A DNA stretch of 64,000 nt from Devosia sp. 67-54 (GTDB lineage: Bacteria > Pseudomonadota > Alphaproteobacteria > Rhizobiales > Devosiaceae). Every line of letters begins with the position of its first letter. Within the stretch, counting starts at the first letter, position 1. The position numbers and the translations under genes are program-made. Under the pieces are notes generated by a model, which was given only the letters and a program-made list of their open reading frames with translations, was not told the DNA's origin and made no database searches. Location: assembly GCF_001899075.1 (NCBI RefSeq), contig NZ_MKVA01000011.1, forward strand, positions 62,001 to 126,000, written 5' to 3'. This document shows, piece by piece, positions 31,265-47,763 of the stretch.

Positions 31265-31720
31265 TCACCGACTGCCGATCTTGCCCTTCACCTGCTCCAC
31301 CGCGCTCAGATACCCCGTGAGCTCGGCGCGGATGCGGTCGGCGGCACGGCGGGCGAGGTCGGGCGCCTGGTTGGCGAGCTTCATGAACGCCGAGCGCGGC
31401 ACGAACAGCGTCTCGACATTGTCCACCGCCTTGATGGTCACCGGCCGCGGCCTGGCCACCACCAGCGACATGGCGCCCAGCACCGCGCCCGGCGTGGTGA
31501 TGACGAACGGGTTGGCCTCGTCGCCCTCCTGGTAGGAGGCGACGGTGCCGCGCACCAGCACATGCGCGCCCTCGGGCACGTCGCCGGCGGTATAGAGCAC
31601 GTTCCCGGCGCGGTATTTCTTGCGCTCGCTGGCGAAGGCCAGCAGCCGACGCTGCTCGGCGTCGCAGACCTCAAAGAAGTCCGCGCGCCCGAGGATCGTG
31701 GTCGCGTCGTCGAGCTGCAT
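31265..31720 (-). CDS. Stand-alone cyclic-nucleotide-binding-domain protein
   Basis: 151 residues, a single Crp/Fnr-type cNMP-binding beta-roll (GNVLYTAGDVPEGAHVLVRG, GAVLGAMSLVVARPRPVTIKA) followed by one helix. There is no HTH, so it does not bind DNA by itself. The canonical cAMP phosphate-binding RSA motif is not clear (RPRPVT stands there). Convergent with xth; the 23 bp gap includes the GAATGGC...GCCATTC palindrome. The 246 bp upstream (31721-31966) holds no gene I can support. Confidence 0.85.
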   Translation of the reverse strand: MQLDDATTILGRADFFEVCDAEQRRLLAFASERKKYRAGNVLYTAGDVPEGAHVLVRGTVASYQEGDEANPFVITTPGAVLGAMSLVVARPRPVTIKAVDNVETLFVPRSAFMKLANQAPDLARRAADRIRAELTGYLSAVEQVKGKIGSR

Positions 31721-31966: not shown

Positions 31967-32650
31967 CTAGGGCACCAACCGGTAGCCGCCCTCCTCCGTC
32001 ACCAGCAGCCGGGCGTTGGACGGATCGCGCTCGATCTTCTGGCGCAGCCGGTAGATGTGGGTTTCGAGCGTATGCGTGGTGACCCGGTTATTGTAGCCCC
32101 ACACCTCTTTCAGCAGCACGTCGCGCGTGATGGTCTTGGGGCCCTGCCGGTAGAGATATTTGAGGATCGAGGTTTCCTTGTCGGTGAGCCGCACCTTGCC
32201 GCCGTCCGCCGCCTCGAGCAGCTTGGCCGCCGGCTGGAAGCTGTAGGGCCCGATGGTGAACACCACGTCCTCGGACTGGTCGTGCTGCCGGAGCTGCGCC
32301 CGGATGCGGGCAAGCAGCACCGAGAAGCGGAACGGCTTGGTGATGTAGTCGTTGGCGCCCGATTCGAGCCCCAGGATCTCGTCGGAATCGCTGTCGTGCC
32401 CGGTGAGCAGCAGGATCGGGCTCTTGAACCCGTCGCGGCGGAGGATCTTCACCGCCTCGCGCCCGTCCATGTCGGGCAGCCCGACGTCGAGGATCATCAG
32501 GTCGACATGGCCGTCGCGCACCATGCGCAGCGCGTCGCCCGCCGTGCCGGCCTCGCTGAGCTCGAACTCGCGGTAATGCATGAGCTGGTCGACGAGGGTT
32601 TTCCTGAGCTCGGCGTCGTCGTCGACGAGGAAAATCCGGCGTCGGATCAT
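31967..32650 (-). CDS. OmpR-family response regulator (CenR-like), orphan
   Basis: 227 residues from ATG 32650. The receiver domain (residues 1-120) has acidic pocket DDD near residue 10, phospho-acceptor in LMILDVGLPDMDGREAV (~54), and the LLLTGHD and KPF switch residues. The winged-helix DNA-binding domain ends ETHIYRLRQKIERDPSNARL. The closest family I recall is CenR of the alphaproteobacterial envelope pathway, but I cannot confirm this. No histidine kinase is adjacent. Confidence 0.9.
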   Translation of the reverse strand: MIRRRIFLVDDDAELRKTLVDQLMHYREFELSEAGTAGDALRMVRDGHVDLMILDVGLPDMDGREAVKILRRDGFKSPILLLTGHDSDSDEILGLESGANDYITKPFRFSVLLARIRAQLRQHDQSEDVVFTIGPYSFQPAAKLLEAADGGKVRLTDKETSILKYLYRQGPKTITRDVLLKEVWGYNNRVTTHTLETHIYRLRQKIERDPSNARLLVTEEGGYRLVP

Positions 32651-36666: not shown

Positions 36667-37689
36667 ATGACCGCGCTCAAGGCGCATGAGGTCGAGCGTT
36701 TCGTCAGGCGGCCCGACCTCGAGGCCGGGGTGATTCTGGTTTATGGCCCCGACACCGGCCTCGTGCGCGAAACGGCGCAGCGGCTGGCGGCGCATTATGC
36801 CGGCCGCGACGGCGACGGCATGGGGCTGGTGACACTCGACGGCGGCGAGATCGACGCCGATCCGGGGCGGCTGCTGGTCGAAGCCCGCACCTCGTCGCTG
36901 TTCGGCGAGCGCCGCGTGGTGCGCGTGCGCGGCGCCGGCAAATCGATCGCCGTGCCGCTGAGCGAGCTCGCGGCCGATCCCTCGGGGGCCGTGATCATCG
37001 TCGAGGCCGGCAATCTGCCGCCGCGCGACGCGCTGCGGGCGCTGGTTGAGGGCGCCAGGGCCGGTCGTGCCCTGCCCTGCTATGCCGACAGCGACGAGAC
37101 CATCCTGCGGCTCATCACCGAGACCTTCAACGCCACCCAGATCCGCGCCGAACCCGACGTGCCGGCGCTGCTGCGCGACATTCTGGGCAACGATCGCGAG
37201 GTCACCCGCCGCGAGCTCGAAAAGCTCAGCCTCTATGCCGCCGAGAGCAAGCTGCTCACCGCCGCCGACGTGCTGACGCTCTGCGCCGACAATGCCGCCC
37301 TGGTGCTCGACGAGGTGGCCGACGCCATCGGTACCGGCCATCCCGACCGGCTCGACGCGGCGCTGAGCCGGGCCCTCGCCGCCGCCGTCAATCCGCAGCA
37401 ATTGCTGGCGTCGCTGACCCAGCATTTCACCCAGCTCCGCCGCTGGCGCACGGTGGTCGACAGTGGCGCGTCGGTGCGCGAGGTGCTCGACGGCGCCCGG
37501 CCGAAGCCGCATTTTTCCCGCCGCGCCGCACTCGAGCAGCAGCTTCGCCTGTGGTCCGACGCCTCCCTCGCCCTCGCCCTCGACCGGCTGCTGCGCGCCA
37601 CCGGCGACAGCCGCAAGAGCTACGGCAGCGCCGAAACCCTCACCCGCCGCACCTTCCTGGCGCTGGCCCAGATGGCCGCGCAGCACTGA
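36667..37689 (+). CDS. holA: DNA polymerase III delta subunit
   Basis: 340 residues. Clamp-loader delta subunit that opens the sliding clamp. N-terminal FVRRPDLEAGVILVYGPDTGLVRETAQRL, then RRVVRVRGAGK, and C-terminal AAVNPQQLLASLTQHFTQLRRW. It lacks a functional Walker motif, as expected for delta. Its stop (37687-37689) directly abuts the parB stop on the other strand, so the operons meet with no spacer. Confidence 0.93.
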   Translation: MTALKAHEVERFVRRPDLEAGVILVYGPDTGLVRETAQRLAAHYAGRDGDGMGLVTLDGGEIDADPGRLLVEARTSSLFGERRVVRVRGAGKSIAVPLSELAADPSGAVIIVEAGNLPPRDALRALVEGARAGRALPCYADSDETILRLITETFNATQIRAEPDVPALLRDILGNDREVTRRELEKLSLYAAESKLLTAADVLTLCADNAALVLDEVADAIGTGHPDRLDAALSRALAAAVNPQQLLASLTQHFTQLRRWRTVVDSGASVREVLDGARPKPHFSRRAALEQQLRLWSDASLALALDRLLRATGDSRKSYGSAETLTRRTFLALAQMAAQH

Positions 37690-38571
<882 letters not shown>

Positions 38572-38579
38572 GGTCGGCC

Positions 38580-39380
38580 TCACGCGGCATTCAATTGGCG
38601 TTCGCGGCGGATCACTTCGGTCGCCAGCCGCAAATACGCCTGGCTCCCCGCGCATTTGAGATCGTAGAGCAGCGCCGGCTTGCCGTAGGACGGCGCCTCG
38701 CTCAGCCGGACATTGCGTGGAATAACAGTATCATAGACCAAATTGCCCATGGTCCCGCGCACATCGTTCAGCACCTGTTCGCTGAGCGAATTGCGGCGGT
38801 CGAACATGGTCATCACCACGCCCTGGATGGCGAGGCGCGGGTTGAGATTGGTGCGGATCTGCTCGATGGTCTGCAGCAATTGGCTGAGGCCCTCGAGCGC
38901 GAAGAACTCGCACTGCATCGGGACCAGCACCGCGTCGGCCGCAACCAGCGCGTTCACCGTCAGCAGGTTCAGCGAGGGCGGGCAGTCGATGATGACATAG
39001 GAGATCGGCTGCTCTTCGATGGCGAGCTCGCCCAGGGCCTTGAAGGCGTTGCGCAATTTGAAGGCGCGGTCGGGCTGCTGCGAAATTACCTGCTCCACCC
39101 CGAGCAGGTCCAGCGTCGACGGCACGATGGCCACCCGCGGCACGTCGGTCATGATCGCGGCGCGCGCCACGGTGGCATCGCCGACCATCAGATCGTAGGA
39201 CGAGACCTCGCGGTCGGTGCGGCTAACCCCAAGCCCCGTCGACGCATTTCCCTGCGGGTCGAGGTCGACGATAAGCACCCGCTCGCCGATGGCGGCCAGC
39301 GCCGTGGCGAGGTTGATGGCGGTGGTGGTCTTGCCCACGCCGCCCTTCTGATTGGCGAGAGTGATGATGCGCGGCGCCAA
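38580..39380 (-). CDS. parA: Chromosome-partitioning ATPase ParA
   Basis: 266 residues. Deviant Walker A ANQKGGVGKTT at residues 9-19, Walker A' DLDPQGNAST, and DCPPSLNLL. The start is read as TTG at 39380 because AGGAGG (39392-39387) lies 6 bases upstream. The in-frame GTG at 39410 would overlap rsmG by 20 bp with no such site. The rsmG stop lies within the Shine-Dalgarno, which suggests coupling. It moves ParB-bound origins to the cell pole. Confidence 0.96.
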   Translation of the reverse strand: MAPRIITLANQKGGVGKTTTAINLATALAAIGERVLIVDLDPQGNASTGLGVSRTDREVSSYDLMVGDATVARAAIMTDVPRVAIVPSTLDLLGVEQVISQQPDRAFKLRNAFKALGELAIEEQPISYVIIDCPPSLNLLTVNALVAADAVLVPMQCEFFALEGLSQLLQTIEQIRTNLNPRLAIQGVVMTMFDRRNSLSEQVLNDVRGTMGNLVYDTVIPRNVRLSEAPSYGKPALLYDLKCAGSQAYLRLATEVIRRERQLNAA

Positions 39381-39390
39381 TAAGGGCCTC

Positions 39391-39978
39391 CTAAGCGACT
39401 GACTTCGCACGCAGATGTGAAATCTCGAGAATGACGCCGGAGGAGTCGGTCTCGCTGGGGTGGACTAGCATATCGAAGTCGAAATGGGCAGCGGCCCGTG
39501 ACACTTCTTCACGATATGTCTGGCCCTTGTGCAGCAAAAGATGGCCATTCGGACGGAGGAAACGAGCCGCGAGAGCGAGGAGGTCGGGCAGCGCCGCCAG
39601 CGCCCGCGACGTCACCAGATCGAATGTTTCACGTGAATCAATCTGCTCGGCGCGGCAGACCTCTACAATGACCGGCAGCCGCAGCTCCCGCGCCACGGTC
39701 CGCAGGAACGCGGCCTTCTTGGCGATGGGCTCGACCAGGGTGAATCGCCGTTCCGTTCCGCGTGAGGCGATGGCCAGCGGAATCGCGGGAAAGCCGCCGC
39801 CGGAGCCGAGATCGATGATGTCGCGATCCTCGGGCCGGAGCAGCGGCAGAAGCTGCAGACTGTCCTCGATGTGACGGGGCCACAGCGTGTCCACTGTTTC
39901 ACGTGAAACGAGATTCTGGACGGCATTCCATTTGCGCAGCAGCGCGGCGAAGGCTTCGAGATCGTCGCGCTGGCTCAT
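39391..39978 (-). CDS. rsmG: 16S rRNA (guanine527-N7)-methyltransferase RsmG (GidB)
   Basis: 195 residues from ATG 39978, overlapping the mnmG stop by 4 bp. SAM-binding motif [17 protein letters not shown] and early [21 protein letters not shown] are diagnostic. It methylates G527 of 16S rRNA; loss gives low-level streptomycin resistance. Two parS-like sites (39625 and 39895) are embedded in its coding sequence. Confidence 0.96.
39625..39640. other. parS-like site 1 (in rsmG)
   Basis: TGTTTCACGTGAATCA, 15 of 16 bases as in the bacterial parS consensus TGTTTCACGTGAAACA. Confidence 0.8.
39895..39910. other. parS-like site 2 (in rsmG)
   Basis: TGTTTCACGTGAAACG, 15 of 16 bases as in the parS consensus. 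Confidence 0.85.
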
Positions 39979-41846
39979 CCGGCTTTGCGCAGCGCCCCGC
40001 GGCGGATGATGGCGAGCAACAACGTCGCGGCCGCCGGCGTCATGCCTTCGAGCGCCTGCGCCTGCGCCAGAGTGGCCGGACGCGCCGCCATCAGCTTCTG
40101 CCGGATCTCGTTGGAAAGCCCTGGAATTTGGGCGTAATCGAGCCAATCCGGAATGGCGACGCTCTCGTCACGCCGCAGCGCCTCGACATCGGCCCGCTGC
40201 CGCTCGAGATAGACGGCATATTGGGCGTCGATGGAGAGCTGTTCCAGAATCGGCGTTCCAATATTGCCGATCTCCGGCCATAGCGCCGTGATCTCGGCGG
40301 GCCCGACATTGGGATAGGCCAGTAGATCGAAGGCGCTGCGGTGTTGCCCGTCGGCATTGACGACAATCCCCGCTTTGCGGGCGACCGATGGCGTGGCGCG
40401 CAGCCCGTGGAGCAGCGTTTTGGCGTCATCAAGTGCCTTGACCTTTGTTCGGAAAGCATCTTGACGATTACGGCCGACGAGGCCCCTGGCGATGCCGAGC
40501 GGCGTCAGCCGCTGGTCGGCATTGTCGCTGCGCAAATGCAGCCGGAACTCGGCGCGCGAGGTGAACATGCGATAAGGCTCGGCCACGCCGCGCGTGACTA
40601 GGTCGTCGACCATGACGCCGAGATAGGAGTCGGTGCGCGAGAGGATGATCTGCTCGTCGCCTCTGGCCCGGAGCGCCGCATTGGCGCCGGCCAGCAGCCC
40701 CTGCGCCGCCGCCTCCTCATAGCCGGTGGTGCCGTTGATCTGGCCGGCGAGGAACAGTCCCGGCAGCCGCTTTAGCTCCAGCGTCGCCTTCAGCTCGCGG
40801 GGATCGACATAGTCGTATTCGATGGCATAGCCCGGCCTGAGGATGCGCACCGCGCCGAGCCCCGGCATGGTCTTGAGGAACGCCTCCTGCACCTCGGCCG
40901 GCAACGAGGTGGAGAGCCCGTTGGGGTAGATGGTGGGATCGTCGAGCCCCTCCGGCTCGAGGAAGATCTGGTGGCTGTCGCGGTCGGCGAAGCGCACGAT
41001 CTTGTCTTCGATCGACGGGCAATAGCGCGGCCCACGGCTCTGGATGCGGCCGGAGTACATGGCCGAGCGATGCAGATTGTCGGCGATGATGCGGTGCGTC
41101 TCGCCCGTCGTATGCGTGATATAGCAACTGATCTGGGGCGTCGTGATCGCCGTCGTCAGCGACGAGAACGGCTCCGGCGGATCGTCGCCGGGCTGTGCCT
41201 CGAGCACGGTAAAGTCGATTGACGACCGATCGAGTCGCGCCGGCGTCCCGGTTTTCAGGCGACCGAGCCGCAATCCCAGGGCCTCCAGCCGCGTCGACAG
41301 GCCGAGCACCGGCGCTTCGCCGACCCGCCCGGCCGGAATGGTCTCCTCGCCGCGATGGATCAGCCCGCGCAGGAAGGTGCCGGTGGTCAAGACGACCGAA
41401 TGCGTACTGAAGCGGCGGCCGTCCAGCAGGATGACTCCTGTTATATTACCGGCGTCGACGACCAGGTCGTCGACCTCGCCCTCGATGATGGTGAGGTTCG
41501 GCTGCGCCGCCAGGGCCGCCTGCATCGCCTGGCGATAGAGCTTGCGGTCGGCCTGGGCGCGCGGTCCGCGCACCGCCGGCCCCTTGCGCCGGTTGAGCAC
41601 GCGGAACTGGATGCCCGCTGCATCGGCGACGCGGCCCATCAAACCGTCCAGCGCGTCGATCTCGCGAACCAGATGTCCCTTGCCCAGCCCACCGATCGCC
41701 GGGTTGCAGCTCATCTCGCCGATGGTGGCGAAGCGGTGCGTGATCAGCGCCGTCGGCACGCCGAGCCGCGCCGCGGCCGCCGCCGCTTCCGAACCAGCAT
41801 GGCCGCCGCCGACGATGATGACGCCGAAATCGCGTGAGTTACTCAT
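39975..41846 (-). CDS. mnmG: tRNA uridine-5-carboxymethylaminomethyl modification enzyme MnmG (GidA)
   Basis: 623 residues. FAD site [21 protein letters not shown] at the N-terminus, [37 protein letters not shown] and [20 protein letters not shown], all GidA signatures. It works with MnmE to put the cmnm5 group on U34 of certain tRNAs. It is coupled to rsmG by ATGA and follows mnmE after a 68 bp gap. Confidence 0.98.
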
Positions 41847-41901
41847 GGCCGGCGGGTGTAGTGGAGGCGGCGGGCAAGTTCAATGGTGCGCGCGGCGGCA
41901 C

Positions 41902-41917
41902 TGTTTCACGTGAATCA
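41902..41917. other. parS-like site 3 (mnmE-mnmG gap)
   Basis: TGTTTCACGTGAATCA, identical to site 1. It overlaps the mnmE stop codon. Confidence 0.8.
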
Positions 41918-43216
41918 TTTGCCGATGCAGAAGCTCGCGAACAGCCGGTCAAGTACGTGCTCGGTATCGATGCGGCCGAGCAGGCGCTCGAGCGCCAGCG
42001 AGGCCTGGCGCAGATGCTCGGCGGCGATCTCGTCGGTGGCGCCTTCGGAGAGGAAGCGATCGAGCGCCGCCTGTGCCGATTGCAGCGCCGCCAGGTCGCG
42101 CTCGCGGCTGACGAGGGCAGGGGGACCGGACCCCGCAGCAGCGGCGGCAAACCCGGCCAGCGCCGCCAGCAGTTCGTCGACGCCGACATCGCTCTGCACC
42201 GACAGCGAGTACTGCGCCGGCACCGGCCCCAGATCGGCTTTGGTCCCCACCGTCCACAGCGCCGGCTGCGGCGGCGGATCGAGCGGCGGCACATCGGGGG
42301 CAACGAGCCACAGCACCAGATCGGCGCGGGCGATCTCCACCTCGGCGCGCCGCACGCCCTCCGCCTCTGCGCGGCTATCGGTGGGCCTGAGGCCCGCCAT
42401 GTCGACCAGCACCACCAGCCGCCCGCCAAGATCAAGCGCCACCTCGCGCACGTCGCGCGTGGTGCCCGGCTCGTCCGAGACGATGGCGAGGTCCGAGCGG
42501 CTGAGCGCATTGAGCAGCGACGACTTGCCGACATTGGGCGGGCCGGCCAGCGCGACGCGCAACCCCTCGCGCACGATACGGCCGCGGCCGACCGCGTCGA
42601 TGGCGGAAGTCAGCTCGCTGGAAAGCCGCTCCATATTGCGCAGCACCGAGTCCGGCAGCACGTCGGACACATCGCTCTCGTCGGAGAAGTCGAGTCGTGC
42701 CTCGATCTCGGCACGCGCGTCGAGCAGCGTCTCGCGCCAGCGGCCGATCTCGGCCGATACGCCGCCGGCGAGCCGCGCCACCGCCTGCTGCCGCTGCGTT
42801 TCGGTTTCGGCCTCGATGAGATCGCCAAGCCCTTCGACCTCGGTCAGATCGAGCTTGCCGTTGAGGAAAGCGCGGCGGGTGAACTCGCCCGCCTCCGCGA
42901 GGCGCACGCCGGGAAGTGCGGCGATGGTTCGGAGCAGCGTTCTAACCACGGCAGGCGAACCATGCACCTGCAGCTCGGCGGTGTCCTCGCCAGTGAAGGA
43001 ATGCGGCGCGGGCATCCAGGCGACGAGGCCGGTATCGATGAGCTGGTTGTCGAGACGGATGGCGGCGAGGGTAAGGTGGCGCGGTGGCGGACGCGCTATG
43101 GAAAGATGTTCCAGAACGGCGCTCGTGTGCGGGCCGGAAATGCGAACGATGGCCACGCCGGACGGAAGGGCGCCGGAAGAAAGGGCGACGATGGTGTCGG
43201 CAGCGGGGGCGGTCAT
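41915..43216 (-). CDS. mnmE: tRNA modification GTPase MnmE (TrmE)
   Basis: 433 residues from ATG 43216; ATG 43240 is possible. N-terminal tetrahydrofolate domain starts DTIVALSSGALPSGVAIVRISGP. The inserted G domain has G1 GPPNVGKSSLLNAL and G2 EPGTTRD. G3 reads DMAGLR (usually DTAG) and G4 TKAD (usually NKxD). The protein ends CIGK, the conserved CxGK. Partner of MnmG. A parS-like site lies across its stop. Confidence 0.96.
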   Translation of the reverse strand: MTAPAADTIVALSSGALPSGVAIVRISGPHTSAVLEHLSIARPPPRHLTLAAIRLDNQLIDTGLVAWMPAPHSFTGEDTAELQVHGSPAVVRTLLRTIAALPGVRLAEAGEFTRRAFLNGKLDLTEVEGLGDLIEAETETQRQQAVARLAGGVSAEIGRWRETLLDARAEIEARLDFSDESDVSDVLPDSVLRNMERLSSELTSAIDAVGRGRIVREGLRVALAGPPNVGKSSLLNALSRSDLAIVSDEPGTTRDVREVALDLGGRLVVLVDMAGLRPTDSRAEAEGVRRAEVEIARADLVLWLVAPDVPPLDPPPQPALWTVGTKADLGPVPAQYSLSVQSDVGVDELLAALAGFAAAAAGSGPPALVSRERDLAALQSAQAALDRFLSEGATDEIAAEHLRQASLALERLLGRIDTEHVLDRLFASFCIGK

Positions 43217-43250
43217 GGGGTGACGGCGCGGGGCTTGCATGGCCGCCCCT

Positions 43251-43380
43251 CACCCGCCTCGCTACGCGAGGCACCCTCTCCCCAGAGGGGAGAGGGGAGG
43301 GCGGAGCCGCGGGTCTTGCAGTCGGGACCCCCCTCGCCCCTTTGGGGAGAGGGTGGCCGCGCAGCGGCCGGGTGAGGGGC
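43251..43380. repeat. Intergenic palindromic repeat (CCCTCACCC / CTCTCCCC family), copy 1
   Basis: Fills the mnmE-rho gap. Outer CCCCTCACCCG pairs with CGGGTGAGGGG; inner hairpins CCTCGCTACGCGAGG and CCCTCTCCCC-aga-GGGGAGAGGG and their partner CCTTTGGGGAGAGGG. A second, partial copy is at 58387-58490. This type of element is scattered through many alphaproteobacterial genomes. Confidence 0.7.
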
Positions 43381-43404
43381 CGCGCAGGACACGCCCTTTC
43401 CCCG

Positions 43405-44670
<1,266 letters not shown>

Positions 44671-44814
44671 GCGGCGAATGACCCTGGAGATAGACTGGAG
44701 ATGTGTGAGGGGGGTTTGCACCGCGCTTTCGCCGGGCGGCGCGCGTTTGTCGGTGCGACGCGCCTCAGATAGCCCGAAGCGGTGTCGTATTCAAGAGCCG
44801 GCTGGTCTCGGGAC

Positions 44815-44830
44815 GGATTCACGTGAAACG
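44815..44830. other. parS-like site 4 (rho-hemJ gap)
   Basis: GGATTCACGTGAAACG, 13 of 16 bases as in the parS consensus and identical to site 5 at 46934. Confidence 0.65.
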
Positions 44831-44835
44831 CCCGT

Positions 44836-44907
44836 GGTGAATGGTGAATGGCAAAATGGTGAATGGTCGAACGGCGCCGCCGGTCCGCGCGACCGTTCAC
44901 CACTTCC
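44836..44907. repeat. GGTGAATGG repeats with partial inverted partner
   Basis: GGTGAATGG occurs at 44836, 44843 and 44858. The right side carries the inverted CCGTTCACCAC and CCCATTC near 44898-44920. Similar units occur at 25970-26032 and 31241-31271. Confidence 0.5.
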
Positions 44908-44918
44908 CATTCGCCGCC

Positions 44919-45365
44919 TCAGAACGGCTTCACGATCACCATGATCACGATGATGATGACCAGAACGAAGGGCAGCTCGTTGACGATGCGCCAGAAGCGG
45001 GTGGGGCGGTCGTTCCGGTCGGCGGCGAATTTGCGGATCTGGGTGCCGTAAAAGCCGTGGATGGCGGTAAGGAGCAGCACCGCCGCCGCCTTGACCCAGG
45101 GCCAGCCCTGCGACCAGTCGACGAGGCCCGGGGTGAACACCATCATCAGCCCGAACACGAAGGTCAGCACCATCGCCGGCCGGATGATGCCGCGATACAG
45201 CCGCCGCTCCATGATCTTGAAGGTTTCCGACTGGATCGAGCCCTTCTCGGCGGCGCTGTGATAGACGAAGAGCCGCGGCAGATACATCATGCCGGCGATC
45301 CAGGCGATCACCGAAATGACGTGCAGGGCCTTGACCCACGTCGTCGCAAACAGCACCCAATCCAT
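44919..45365 (-). CDS. hemJ: Protoporphyrinogen IX oxidase HemJ
   Basis: 148 residues, four membrane helices. HemJ signature near the start, VKALHVISVIAWIAGMMYLPRLFVYH, with the conserved His residues, and FKIMERRLYRGIIRPAM. It catalyses the penultimate step of heme synthesis. It follows hemE by 3 bp, so the two form an operon. Many rhizobia have hemH at this place; hemJ here is a variation. Confidence 0.93.
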   Translation of the reverse strand: MDWVLFATTWVKALHVISVIAWIAGMMYLPRLFVYHSAAEKGSIQSETFKIMERRLYRGIIRPAMVLTFVFGLMMVFTPGLVDWSQGWPWVKAAAVLLLTAIHGFYGTQIRKFAADRNDRPTRFWRIVNELPFVLVIIIVIMVIVKPF

Positions 45366-45368
45366 CGC

Positions 45369-46400
45369 TCAGCCCCCTTTGACGCGCCTGACCAGCCGCT
45401 CGACGTTGGCGATCGGCGTTTGCGGCAATATCCCATGCCCGAGATTGAAGATATGCGGCCGATTGCCGAAGGCCGCGATGATGCCGTCGATCGCCAGATC
45501 GAGCTGGGGGCCGCCGGCGAGCAGCCGGATCGGGTCGAGATTGCCTTGCACCGGCAGCGATCTGGGCAAGGCCCTGTCGGCGAAATCCGGCGGCGTTCCG
45601 TAATCGAGTCCGAGCGCATCCGGGCGGACGGCGGCGGCATAGGCCGGCAGCATCGCCGCGGCGCCGCGGGGAAAACCGATGAAAGCGGCGTCCGGGATGC
45701 GGGCCCGCACGCCCTCGACGATTTTCCGGTTTGGCGCGATGACGTAATCGCGGAACTGCTGCTCGTCGAGGTTCATGGCCCAGCTCTCGAACAGCTGCAC
45801 CACGTCGGCACCGGCCTCGAACTGGCGGACCAGATAGGCGATCGAGGCCTCGACCAGGATATCAATGAGCGCCGCGAACGCCTGCGGCTGGGTGAGGGCG
45901 AAGATGCGTGCCGCGGCCTGGTCGGTGGAGCCCGCGCCGGCGATCATGTAGGTGGCGACCGTCCAGGGCGAGCCGCAAAAGCCGATCAGCGTCTTGCCGG
46001 GGGGCAGGGCGCCCCTGATCCGCTCCAACGTCTCGAACACCGGAGCCAGCCGCTCGAGCACCGCATCCGGCCTGAGCTTCCCCAGCCCTTCCGGAGTGAT
46101 CGGTTCGAGCCGTGGACCCTCCCCGGCCTCGAACCGCACCTCCTGACCCAGCGCGTCCGGGATCACCAGGATATCGGAGAACAGGATCGCCGCATCGAGG
46201 TCGAAACGGCGGAGCGGCTGCAGGGTGACTTCGGCGGCGAGCGCCGGGGTGTAGCAGAGCTCGAGGAAGCTGCCGGCGCGAGCCCGTAGCTCGCGATATT
46301 CCGGCAGATAGCGGCCGGCCTGCCGCATGATCCAGAGCGGCGGCCGGGCCTGGCGCGCACCGCGGATCGTGTCGAGCAGCGGTTTGGCCACCGGGCTCAC
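45369..46400 (-). CDS. hemE: Uroporphyrinogen decarboxylase
   Basis: 343 residues from a GTG at 46400 with GAGGGAA 8 bases upstream. PPLWIMRQAGRYLPEYRELR is the N-terminal signature, GFCGSPWTVATYMIAG the second. It removes four carboxyl groups from uroporphyrinogen III. It is the first gene leftward from the putative origin, as in Caulobacter and Rickettsia, where oriC also lies beside hemE. Confidence 0.97.
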   Translation of the reverse strand: MSPVAKPLLDTIRGARQARPPLWIMRQAGRYLPEYRELRARAGSFLELCYTPALAAEVTLQPLRRFDLDAAILFSDILVIPDALGQEVRFEAGEGPRLEPITPEGLGKLRPDAVLERLAPVFETLERIRGALPPGKTLIGFCGSPWTVATYMIAGAGSTDQAAARIFALTQPQAFAALIDILVEASIAYLVRQFEAGADVVQLFESWAMNLDEQQFRDYVIAPNRKIVEGVRARIPDAAFIGFPRGAAAMLPAYAAAVRPDALGLDYGTPPDFADRALPRSLPVQGNLDPIRLLAGGPQLDLAIDGIIAAFGNRPHIFNLGHGILPQTPIANVERLVRRVKGG

Positions 46401-46579
46401 GACCGGGTTCCCTCAAAGAGATAAGATTCTTTTATCATCAGTATCATAGCCGTGTTTTGCAGGAATTCTTCGGCGCCGGATAGCCGGAAGGGCGCCAGCC
46501 GGCAGATACCAAGAGTCGCATCCGCAAGCTGGGGATTGCCGGCGGTTGAGGGCGAAGAACATCGCCGGACTCGGGCGGA

Positions 46580-46595
46580 TTAACGAAGCGTTAAC
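46580..46595. promoter_or_regulatory. CtrA box 1
   Basis: TTAA-CGAAGCG-TTAAC, perfect match to the CtrA consensus, inside the putative origin. Confidence 0.75.
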
Positions 46596-46677
46596 CATTT
46601 CCATCCGCCCCGGGCGGCTGGGGATAAGCTGGGGACGGCAGGGCCCGCCTGGAATCATGTTATCCCCGATTCCGCCG

Positions 46678-46693
46678 TTAAGCTTTTGTTAAC
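46678..46693. promoter_or_regulatory. CtrA box 2
   Basis: TTAA-GCTTTTG-TTAAC, perfect match to the CtrA consensus, 98 bp from box 1 and next to the DnaA-like TTATCCCCG. Confidence 0.75.
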
Positions 46694-46933
46694 CGTCCCG
46701 GCGGGTCAGGGTGTGGACGCCGATCCCGGGGAGGGGGACAACCCGCCAGCGCCCCCGGCCGCCGCCGGATTTCCCCTGGCCGGATTATCCGCCAGCAACG
46801 ACTCTGTGGATTGGCCGCCCCGCCCGGCTGCGAGATCGGCCGCCACGATCGCGGGGGGAAGGGATTGCGGGGCGGACTCGAAATTGCGAGTCGTGTCGAG
46901 TCGGCGCCGCGCGCCGCCTGCACCCTGTGGAAA

Positions 46934-46949
46934 GGATTCACGTGAAACG
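46934..46949. other. parS-like site 5 (at the aroE start)
   Basis: GGATTCACGTGAAACG, identical to site 4. It contains the GTG start codon of aroE and overlaps the last DnaA-like box and GANTC site of the putative origin. Confidence 0.65.
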
Positions 46950-47763
46950 CGCCTTCGTCATCGGCCACCCGATCGCCCATTCGCGCTCGCCGCTGATCCA
47001 CGGCCACTGGATCGACACCTACCGGGTCGGCGGCAGCTACGAGGCGATCGACGTGGCGCCGGCGGCGCTGCCCGATTTCTTCGAGCGTCTGAAGGGCGGC
47101 GAGTTCGTCGGCGGCAACGTCACCATCCCGCACAAGGAACAGGTGGTGGCGCTGGTCGACGAGCTCGACCCGCTGGCCGAGGAGATCGGCGCGGTCAACA
47201 CGCTGGTGCTCCGCGACGCCGGGGTCCGGGGGTTCAACACCGACTATATGGGCTTTCTTGGCAATCTCGACCAGAACGCCCCCGGCTGGGACCTGGGGCT
47301 CGACGAGGTGGTGGTGCTGGGCGCGGGCGGCGCGTCGCGCGCCATCCTCGTGGCGCTCAAATCGCGCGCCGTCGGCAAGATCCACCTGCTCAACCGCACC
47401 GTCGGCAAGGCCGAGGACCTGGCGATCGAGCTCGGCGGGCCCATCGCCTGCGGCGGGCTCGACGAATTCGCCGCCCGGGCCGGCGGCGCCAGGCTCATCG
47501 TCAACACCAGCTCGGTCGGCATGAAGGACACGCGCTTCGAGGGCCTCGACCTGTCGGTCGTGCCCGCCGATGCGGTGGTGACCGATCTCGTCTACGTGCC
47601 GCTCGTCACCCCGCTGCTGGCCGATGCACGGCAGCGCGGCCTGCGCACCGTGGACGGGCTCGGCATGCTGCTGCACCAGGCGGTGCCCGGGTTCGAGGCG
47701 TGGTTCGGGGTCAGGCCCGAGGTGACGCCGGAGCTGCGGGCGCTGGTCGAGGCAACGCTCTGA
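46942..47763 (+). CDS. aroE: Shikimate dehydrogenase
   Basis: 273 residues from GTG 46942, with AAAGGA 5 bases upstream; upstream frame lacks homology. N-terminal IGHPIAHSRSPLIHGHW binds shikimate, GGNVTIPHKEQV holds the catalytic Lys, FNTDYMGFL the Asp, and VVLGAGGASRAIL is the NADP loop. Fourth-from-last step to chorismate. First gene right of the origin; its stop overlaps the coaE start (TGATG). Confidence 0.96.
   Translation: MKRAFVIGHPIAHSRSPLIHGHWIDTYRVGGSYEAIDVAPAALPDFFERLKGGEFVGGNVTIPHKEQVVALVDELDPLAEEIGAVNTLVLRDAGVRGFNTDYMGFLGNLDQNAPGWDLGLDEVVVLGAGGASRAILVALKSRAVGKIHLLNRTVGKAEDLAIELGGPIACGGLDEFAARAGGARLIVNTSSVGMKDTRFEGLDLSVVPADAVVTDLVYVPLVTPLLADARQRGLRTVDGLGMLLHQAVPGFEAWFGVRPEVTPELRALVEATL

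Follow-up and report, generated by a model that had tools for sequence, protein, structure and literature searches.

A probable chromosomal origin of replication with paired CtrA boxes in the hemE-aroE gap of a Devosia genome

The window analyzed here is a 64-kb stretch (C11:62001-126000, on contig C11) of a Devosiaceae-like genome, G000, whose draft assembly totals 4.21 Mb and consists of 12 contigs. Within it, hemE and aroE, the latter beginning with GTG at 46942, are separated by 541 bp of 64% GC (Table 1). This gap is divergent, as the initial annotation had read it: eight genes on its left (hemE, hemJ, rho, mnmE, mnmG, rsmG, parA and parB) run leftward, and three beyond it (aroE, coaE and dnaQ) run rightward. 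Ten of these 11 flanking genes have a suitable Pfam match, rsmG being the only one without a fitting match. By hemE, the closest named relatives are a Hyphomicrobiales MAG (75%) and Devosia sp. 66-22 (73%). A secondary replicon of the repABC type, which would be without core chromosomal genes, is improbable given rho, mnmG, mnmE and secB in the window and dnaA on the same contig, 115 kb from the gap.

The gap was compared with its counterparts at other hemE loci. From 112 loci we dropped L002 (a dnaA locus without hemE) and L083-L085 (repeats of L001, L004 and L008), which left 108, namely 43 Devosiaceae (L001, L003-L017 and L086-L112) and 65 others (L018-L082), a division made by locus number, a break in identity and the same-family label rather than by a tree. 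Synteny and octamer polarity were compared in eight Devosiaceae genomes (this one, G006, G010, G018, G020, G022, G026 and G038). Across these eight, the surroundings of hemE are collinear from about -13 to +1.5 kb, and the right flank is shuffled. The gene past the gap varies: it is aroE here, maf in Devosia L008, and in Shinella a Kinase-PPPase gene, which we take to be COG1806, followed by maf. The hemE and aroE genes lie 536-543 bp apart in 4 of the 43 Devosiaceae and 1012-1240 bp apart in the other 39, a distance with room for maf, as seen in L008.

Table 1. Features of the hemE-aroE gap and its left flank, in window coordinates.
Feature	Position	Strand	Basis
parB	37690..38655	-	Pfam ParB_N, HTH_ParB, ParB_C
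parA (5' end provisional)	38580..39410	-	Pfam AAA_31
parS-like site	39625..39640		<=3 mismatches; genome pattern search
parS-like site, palindromic core GTTTCACGTGAAAC	39895..39910		<=3 mismatches; genome pattern search
parS-like site	41902..41917		<=3 mismatches; genome pattern search
parS-like site	44815..44830		<=3 mismatches; genome pattern search
hemE	45369..46400	-	Pfam URO-D
hemE-aroE gap, probable chromosomal origin	46401..46941		sequence scan; counterpart read in 43 Devosiaceae
AT-rich stretch, 70% AT, candidate unwinding element	46419..46458		composition; function inferred
Ten GANTC (CcrM) sites: 46425, 46513, 46568, 46652, 46668, 46800, 46875, 46888, 46898, 46935	46425..46939		motif scan
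DnaA-like box, 2 mismatches, inside AT-rich stretch	46432..46440	+	motif scan
Devosiaceae element TATCATRGCNGTGTTTTGCANGAATTC, 27 bp, beside hemE	46442..46468		alignment of relatives
CtrA box 1, TTAA-N7-TTAAC, TTAACGAAGCGTTAAC	46580..46595	+	motif scan; box 170-240 bp from hemE in 34/43 Devosiaceae
DnaA-like box, 1 mismatch, TTATCCCCA	46619..46627	-	motif scan
DnaA-like box TTATCCCCG, 2 mismatches, fits Devosiaceae alignment consensus	46660..46668	+	motif scan, alignment
CtrA box 2, TTAA-N7-TTAAC, TTAAGCTTTTGTTAAC (matches both strands)	46678..46693	+	motif scan; box 241-305 bp from hemE in 17/43 Devosiaceae
DnaA-like box, 2 mismatches	46785..46793	+	motif scan
DnaA-like box, 2 mismatches	46805..46813	-	motif scan; TGTGGAAAA near same offset in 24/43 Devosiaceae
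DnaA-like box, 2 mismatches	46926..46934	-	motif scan
parS-like site at aroE start, overlapping a GANTC	46934..46949		<=3 mismatches; genome pattern search
aroE	46942..47763	+	Pfam Shikimate_dh_N

The two perfect CtrA boxes named in the initial annotation are present in the gap, and they are the only occurrences of TTAA-N7-TTAA in the whole window. In the 4.21 Mb genome, TTAA-N7-TTAAC occurs at 16 distinct sites (25 matches, nine sites being counted on both strands; 8 matches for the control), and the next closest pair is 12.9 kb apart, so that the gap holds the genome's only close CtrA pair. Among relatives, 39 of 43 Devosiaceae have a CtrA box within 520 bp of hemE, vs. 9 of 65 other loci; the rest of the Devosiaceae loci, 234 kb in all, contains none. 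The box falls 170-305 bp from hemE in 37 of the 43, and 18 have at least two boxes; four (L095, L097, L111 and L112) have none within 520 bp. The nine non-Devosiaceae loci with a box comprise four Cohaesibacter, two Bartonella, one Afifella, one Phyllobacteriaceae MAG and one other alphaproteobacterium. In this genome ccrM, too, is preceded by a CtrA box, 30 bp before its open frame, which suggests that TTAA-N7-TTAAC is a CtrA site here. In Caulobacter, ccrM is under CtrA control (PMC10073500, in excerpt). Six loci of Rhodoplanes, Afipia, Nitrobacter and Xanthobacteraceae type (L018, L019, L020, L022, L023 and L030) have no CtrA box and nearly no TTATCC upstream of hemE, and no aroE match in the locus; judging from these sequences, their origin may lie elsewhere than at hemE.

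Candidate DnaA sites in the gap are degenerate. Six sites on both strands match TTATCCACA with at most 2 mismatches, where 0.43 would be expected (p 6e-6), which agrees with the earlier count of at least six DnaA-box-like sequences. One of the six has a single mismatch, none is a perfect DnaA box, and the strict form TTATNCACA gave 0 matches in the gap. Several of these sites have counterparts in the family: GTTATCCCC occurs in 10 of 43 Devosiaceae and TTATCC[AC]C in 21 of 43 as the counterpart of the 46660 box, and TGTGGAWAA, also DnaA-like, is found in 26 of 43, in most cases 400-440 bp away from hemE. No IHF site was found in the gap with either of two consensus forms, including WATCAN5WTR, which is present within 520 bp in 3 of 43 Devosiaceae. 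The AT-rich stretch that had been noticed beside hemE does stand out, its AT content being matched by 0.0125% of the window's 40-bp stretches, and the gap as a whole is 35.9% AT vs. 33.1% for the window. Of the 43 Devosiaceae, 25 have the core GTGTTTTGCA of the 27-bp element near hemE and 9 have the full pattern; the core occurs there in 0 of 65 others. The element may be an unwinding element or the hemE promoter.

The gap is also rich in GANTC, the CcrM target. The enrichment claimed by the initial annotation holds, but its count of nine must be corrected to ten, whereas 541 bp contain on average 0.87 sites across the window and 0.68 across 400 kb of C11 (Poisson p ~1e-8, for a place picked after the fact). 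In those 400 kb of C11, only two places have at least six GANTC per 541 bp, the gap and the region upstream of dnaA, with ten each. Across the loci, GANTC is 5.5-fold denser at hemE than in the rest of the locus in the 43 Devosiaceae, with a median of 5 per 500 bp in the gap vs. 1.77 per kb elsewhere, and 4.1-fold denser in the 65 others. When the 16 pentamers of the form XYNY'X' are ranked, GANTC comes out top in the 65 others, and in Devosiaceae the rare TANTA alone is ahead of it. The hemE gap is the densest GANTC cluster of the stretch fetched, or tied for it, in G000, G038, G022, G020 and G010; as a rule for all genomes this fails in G018, G006 and G026. Upstream of the dnaA open frame there are 3-8 GANTC per 500 bp in 18 of 18 relatives (mean 4.8), and G010 and G020 reach no more than 5 and 4 per 541 bp, respectively; G022 and G018 were left out of this count, as only 201 bases and 1 base of contig, respectively, precede the frame.

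Taken by themselves, CtrA and GANTC motifs could also mark an ordinary divergent promoter of hemE and its neighbor under CtrA and CcrM control. GANTC is over-represented more than 1.5-fold on average in intergenic DNA of Alphaproteobacteria (PMC3973325, in excerpt), and ccrM too has a CtrA box upstream in this genome. The Devosiaceae boxes, however, stay by hemE whether the neighbor is aroE or the longer spacing with room for maf, GANTC clusters of this density number just two in 400 kb, and neither a parS cluster nor DnaA-like boxes are expected of such a promoter. We therefore consider a mere promoter very improbable.

The partition genes and their sites lie close by. The parA and parB genes were confirmed by Pfam, and exact matches to KKTTCACGTGAAWC in the whole genome fall in 5 distinct places, all within 7.3 kb (C11:101626-108948; window 39626-46948), which bears out the earlier statement that parAB and parS-like sites adjoin the gap. 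Over six genomes, all 43 distinct exact matches (38 of them from the five relatives) lie at -28 to +88 kb of hemE, and the reversed KKTTCACGTGAAWC gave 0 matches in the same six; these counts are of exact matches, so weaker sites are missed. Some of the sites reach +64 to +88 kb of hemE in the set G018, G006 and G022, in which the octamer switch described below is displaced. In Caulobacter crescentus, parS lies within ~10 kb of the origin, Cori, as in the present genome. A GANTC falls in one arm (GTTTCACGTGAATC) of four of the five parS sites here (39625, 41902, 44815 and 46934) and of 30 of 38 in the five relatives; from the sequence, CcrM could methylate half-sites of parS.

The genome encodes DnaA, CcrM, GcrA, ParA, ParB and CtrA, the CtrA gene being cut by the end of contig C9. 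Two of the NCBIfam scores are below the curated cut-offs, those of CcrM (622 bits of 830) and of the CtrA fragment (278 of 350). The gcrA match (G000:C6:119009-119560) has one in-frame TAG within the stretch searched, which may be due to an error in the assembly or fall beyond the gene itself.

Strand polarity gave a less uniform picture. The initial annotation had proposed GC skew as a check, and no minimum was found at the gap: over the 400 of 840 kb of C11 covered, cumulative skew falls on to ~320 kb. GC skew was rejected as an origin locator, as there was no minimum at hemE in C11, in 20 samples of G018 or in 200 kb of G006; in G022, whose stretch contains 22,500 N (masked bases), it forms two clear halves at coarse scale and is flat around hemE. 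The octamer GGGCAGGG, which came out on top when the two halves of G022 were compared (31 vs. 1), fits the KOPS motif GGGNAGGG (PMC2443382 and PMC13342612, both in excerpt). In C11:1-400000 it occurs 3 times on the plus and 6 times on the minus strand left of the gap, and 18 and 3 times, respectively, right of it (Fisher p 0.008). The best position for its switch in this genome is -9.3 to -4.3 kb from hemE, near parAB (26 of 30 sites concordant), and a split at hemE itself leaves 24 of 30 concordant. The switch is similarly placed in G026 (-17 to -5.2 kb; 17 of 24) and G038 (-9.5 to -3.0 kb; 11 of 13), lies at +2.4 to +11.2 kb in G010 (20 of 26) and has three equally good positions in G020 (11 of 15). 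In Shinella, used as a control, GGGCAGGG is on the minus strand at 5 of 5 sites in the last 40 kb of the record, up to 3 kb before its end, and on the plus strand from base 31,426 onward at 100 of 100 among the sites listed; with hemE starting at 32,387 and the gap at ~31,981-32,386, one plus site lies on the far side of the gap, which puts the switch next to it.

In 3 of the 8 Devosiaceae genomes the switch is displaced by ~50-100 kb to the right of hemE: +77 to +80 kb in G018 (33 of 39), +51 to +55 kb in G006 (19 of 22), and +78 to +89 or +101 to +104 kb in G022 (34 of 37); the stretches of these genomes are L151, L172-L190 and L193-L212. Inversions in the right flank could lie behind the displacement, given the synteny, but block orientation explains it weakly (18+/10- vs. 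13+/19-, p 0.077).

These positions bear on whether replication might start at another place in the region, either close to parAB-rsmG or in the interval from hemE to dnaA, with the gap as a mere landmark. The best switch here (window 37070-42115) and the window's local cumulative-skew minimum near 37-39 kb both fall on the parAB side, the switch is 51-104 kb right of hemE in three relatives, and dnaA is ~94-195 kb from hemE in six genomes (our own and five relatives). Against this, when CtrA, DnaA-like and GANTC motifs were combined in a joint score, an ad hoc measure devised for the present analysis, the top place of the fetched stretch was at hemE in 4 of 4 genomes (centered at +0.45 kb in G018), and nowhere else in these stretches, including the right side of hemE, was there a second cluster that scored as high. 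In G018, the gene downstream of the GANTC cluster at +77 kb has a dihydropyrimidine dehydrogenase domain, and the cluster may be its promoter; the gaps from parB to hemE are all shorter than 200 bp. An origin outside the gap is thus improbable in our judgment.

We instead consider it likely, with good confidence, that the hemE-aroE gap is the chromosomal origin, which would be initiated by DnaA, repressed by CtrA and methylated by CcrM. That the gap is an origin, already put forward as probable in the initial annotation, is supported by the conserved CtrA and DnaA-like boxes, the confinement of parS, the collinear surroundings of hemE and, in this genome, a KOPS-like switch no more than ~10 kb away. 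DnaA would load on the degenerate boxes at 46619-46668 and 46785-46813 and open the AT-rich stretch beside hemE. Phosphorylated CtrA, bound to the boxes at 46580 and 46678 that flank the 46619-46668 pair, would keep the origin shut until CtrA is removed. The copied origin would then be segregated by ParB on the parS cluster, of which four sites lie in 7 kb leftward and the fifth at the gap's right-hand end. CcrM would methylate the ten GANTC, which would be hemimethylated after fork passage until CcrM acts late in the cycle.

The position agrees with known origins. Those of Caulobacter and Rickettsia are at hemE, as the initial annotation said and as an excerpt of PMC1914354 states, and those of several Hyphomicrobiales and of Caulobacter sit within a conserved 12-gene cluster (PMC2443382, in excerpt). 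Measured against the in-silico features given for hemE-type origins in the excerpt of PMC1914354, the gap has the hemE flank and two TTAA-N7-TTAA boxes but 0 matches to the strict DnaA and IHF patterns, and we therefore propose that it functions as such an origin would and call it a variant of the hemE-type origin. Like Caulobacter crescentus Cori, it adjoins hemE and has TTAA-N7-TTAA boxes and several GANTC (excerpts of PMC1914354 and PMC3973325). Cori has five CtrA boxes, vs. two here, and its other flank is COG1806 rather than aroE; unlike Cori, the Devosia gap lacks an IHF consensus and a perfect DnaA box. Sinorhizobium meliloti and Brucella abortus belong to the same order, Hyphomicrobiales, and their origins are in the 12-gene cluster (PMC2443382, in excerpt). 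Excerpts of PMC4433202 for S. meliloti and PMC2877005 for B. abortus, however, report these origins to be without CtrA motifs or binding, in contrast to the CtrA box of 39 of 43 Devosiaceae. In Caulobacter, CtrA binds the origin, and in Hyphomonas it binds a site adjoining the origin (PMC7200025, in excerpt). For Devosia itself, a literature search combining CtrA and origin of replication gave a match that, in its available part, dealt with c-di-GMP genes. The place of this very probable origin is the one expected for the class, and the new twist would be its CtrA sites, reported missing in two relatives of the same order.

With one GANTC-dense cluster in the hemE-aroE gap and a second before dnaA, the genome resembles E. 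coli, where 11 GATC lie in oriC and 8 upstream of dnaA (PMC10073500, in excerpt), compared with 10 and 10 GANTC per 541 bp here; E. coli uses GATC and Dam, whereas the Devosia gap has GANTC and CcrM. Conceivably, Devosiaceae maintain this pair as a CcrM counterpart of E. coli oriC/dnaA sequestration, in which a putative reader of hemimethylated GANTC would shut both places after initiation, beside direct repression by CtrA. We regard this as improbable. The pairing is at most suggestive, because Caulobacter origins hold several GANTC (PMC3973325, in excerpt) and intergenic DNA is enriched in general.

The analysis thus places the probable origin of a little-studied family. It suggests that CtrA directly controls the origin in this family, although such control is reported to be missing in Sinorhizobium and Brucella of the same order, so that its loss or regain could be traced. 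The GANTC density shared by the origin and dnaA would make a model of methylation-based timing or sequestration testable in cultivable Devosia.
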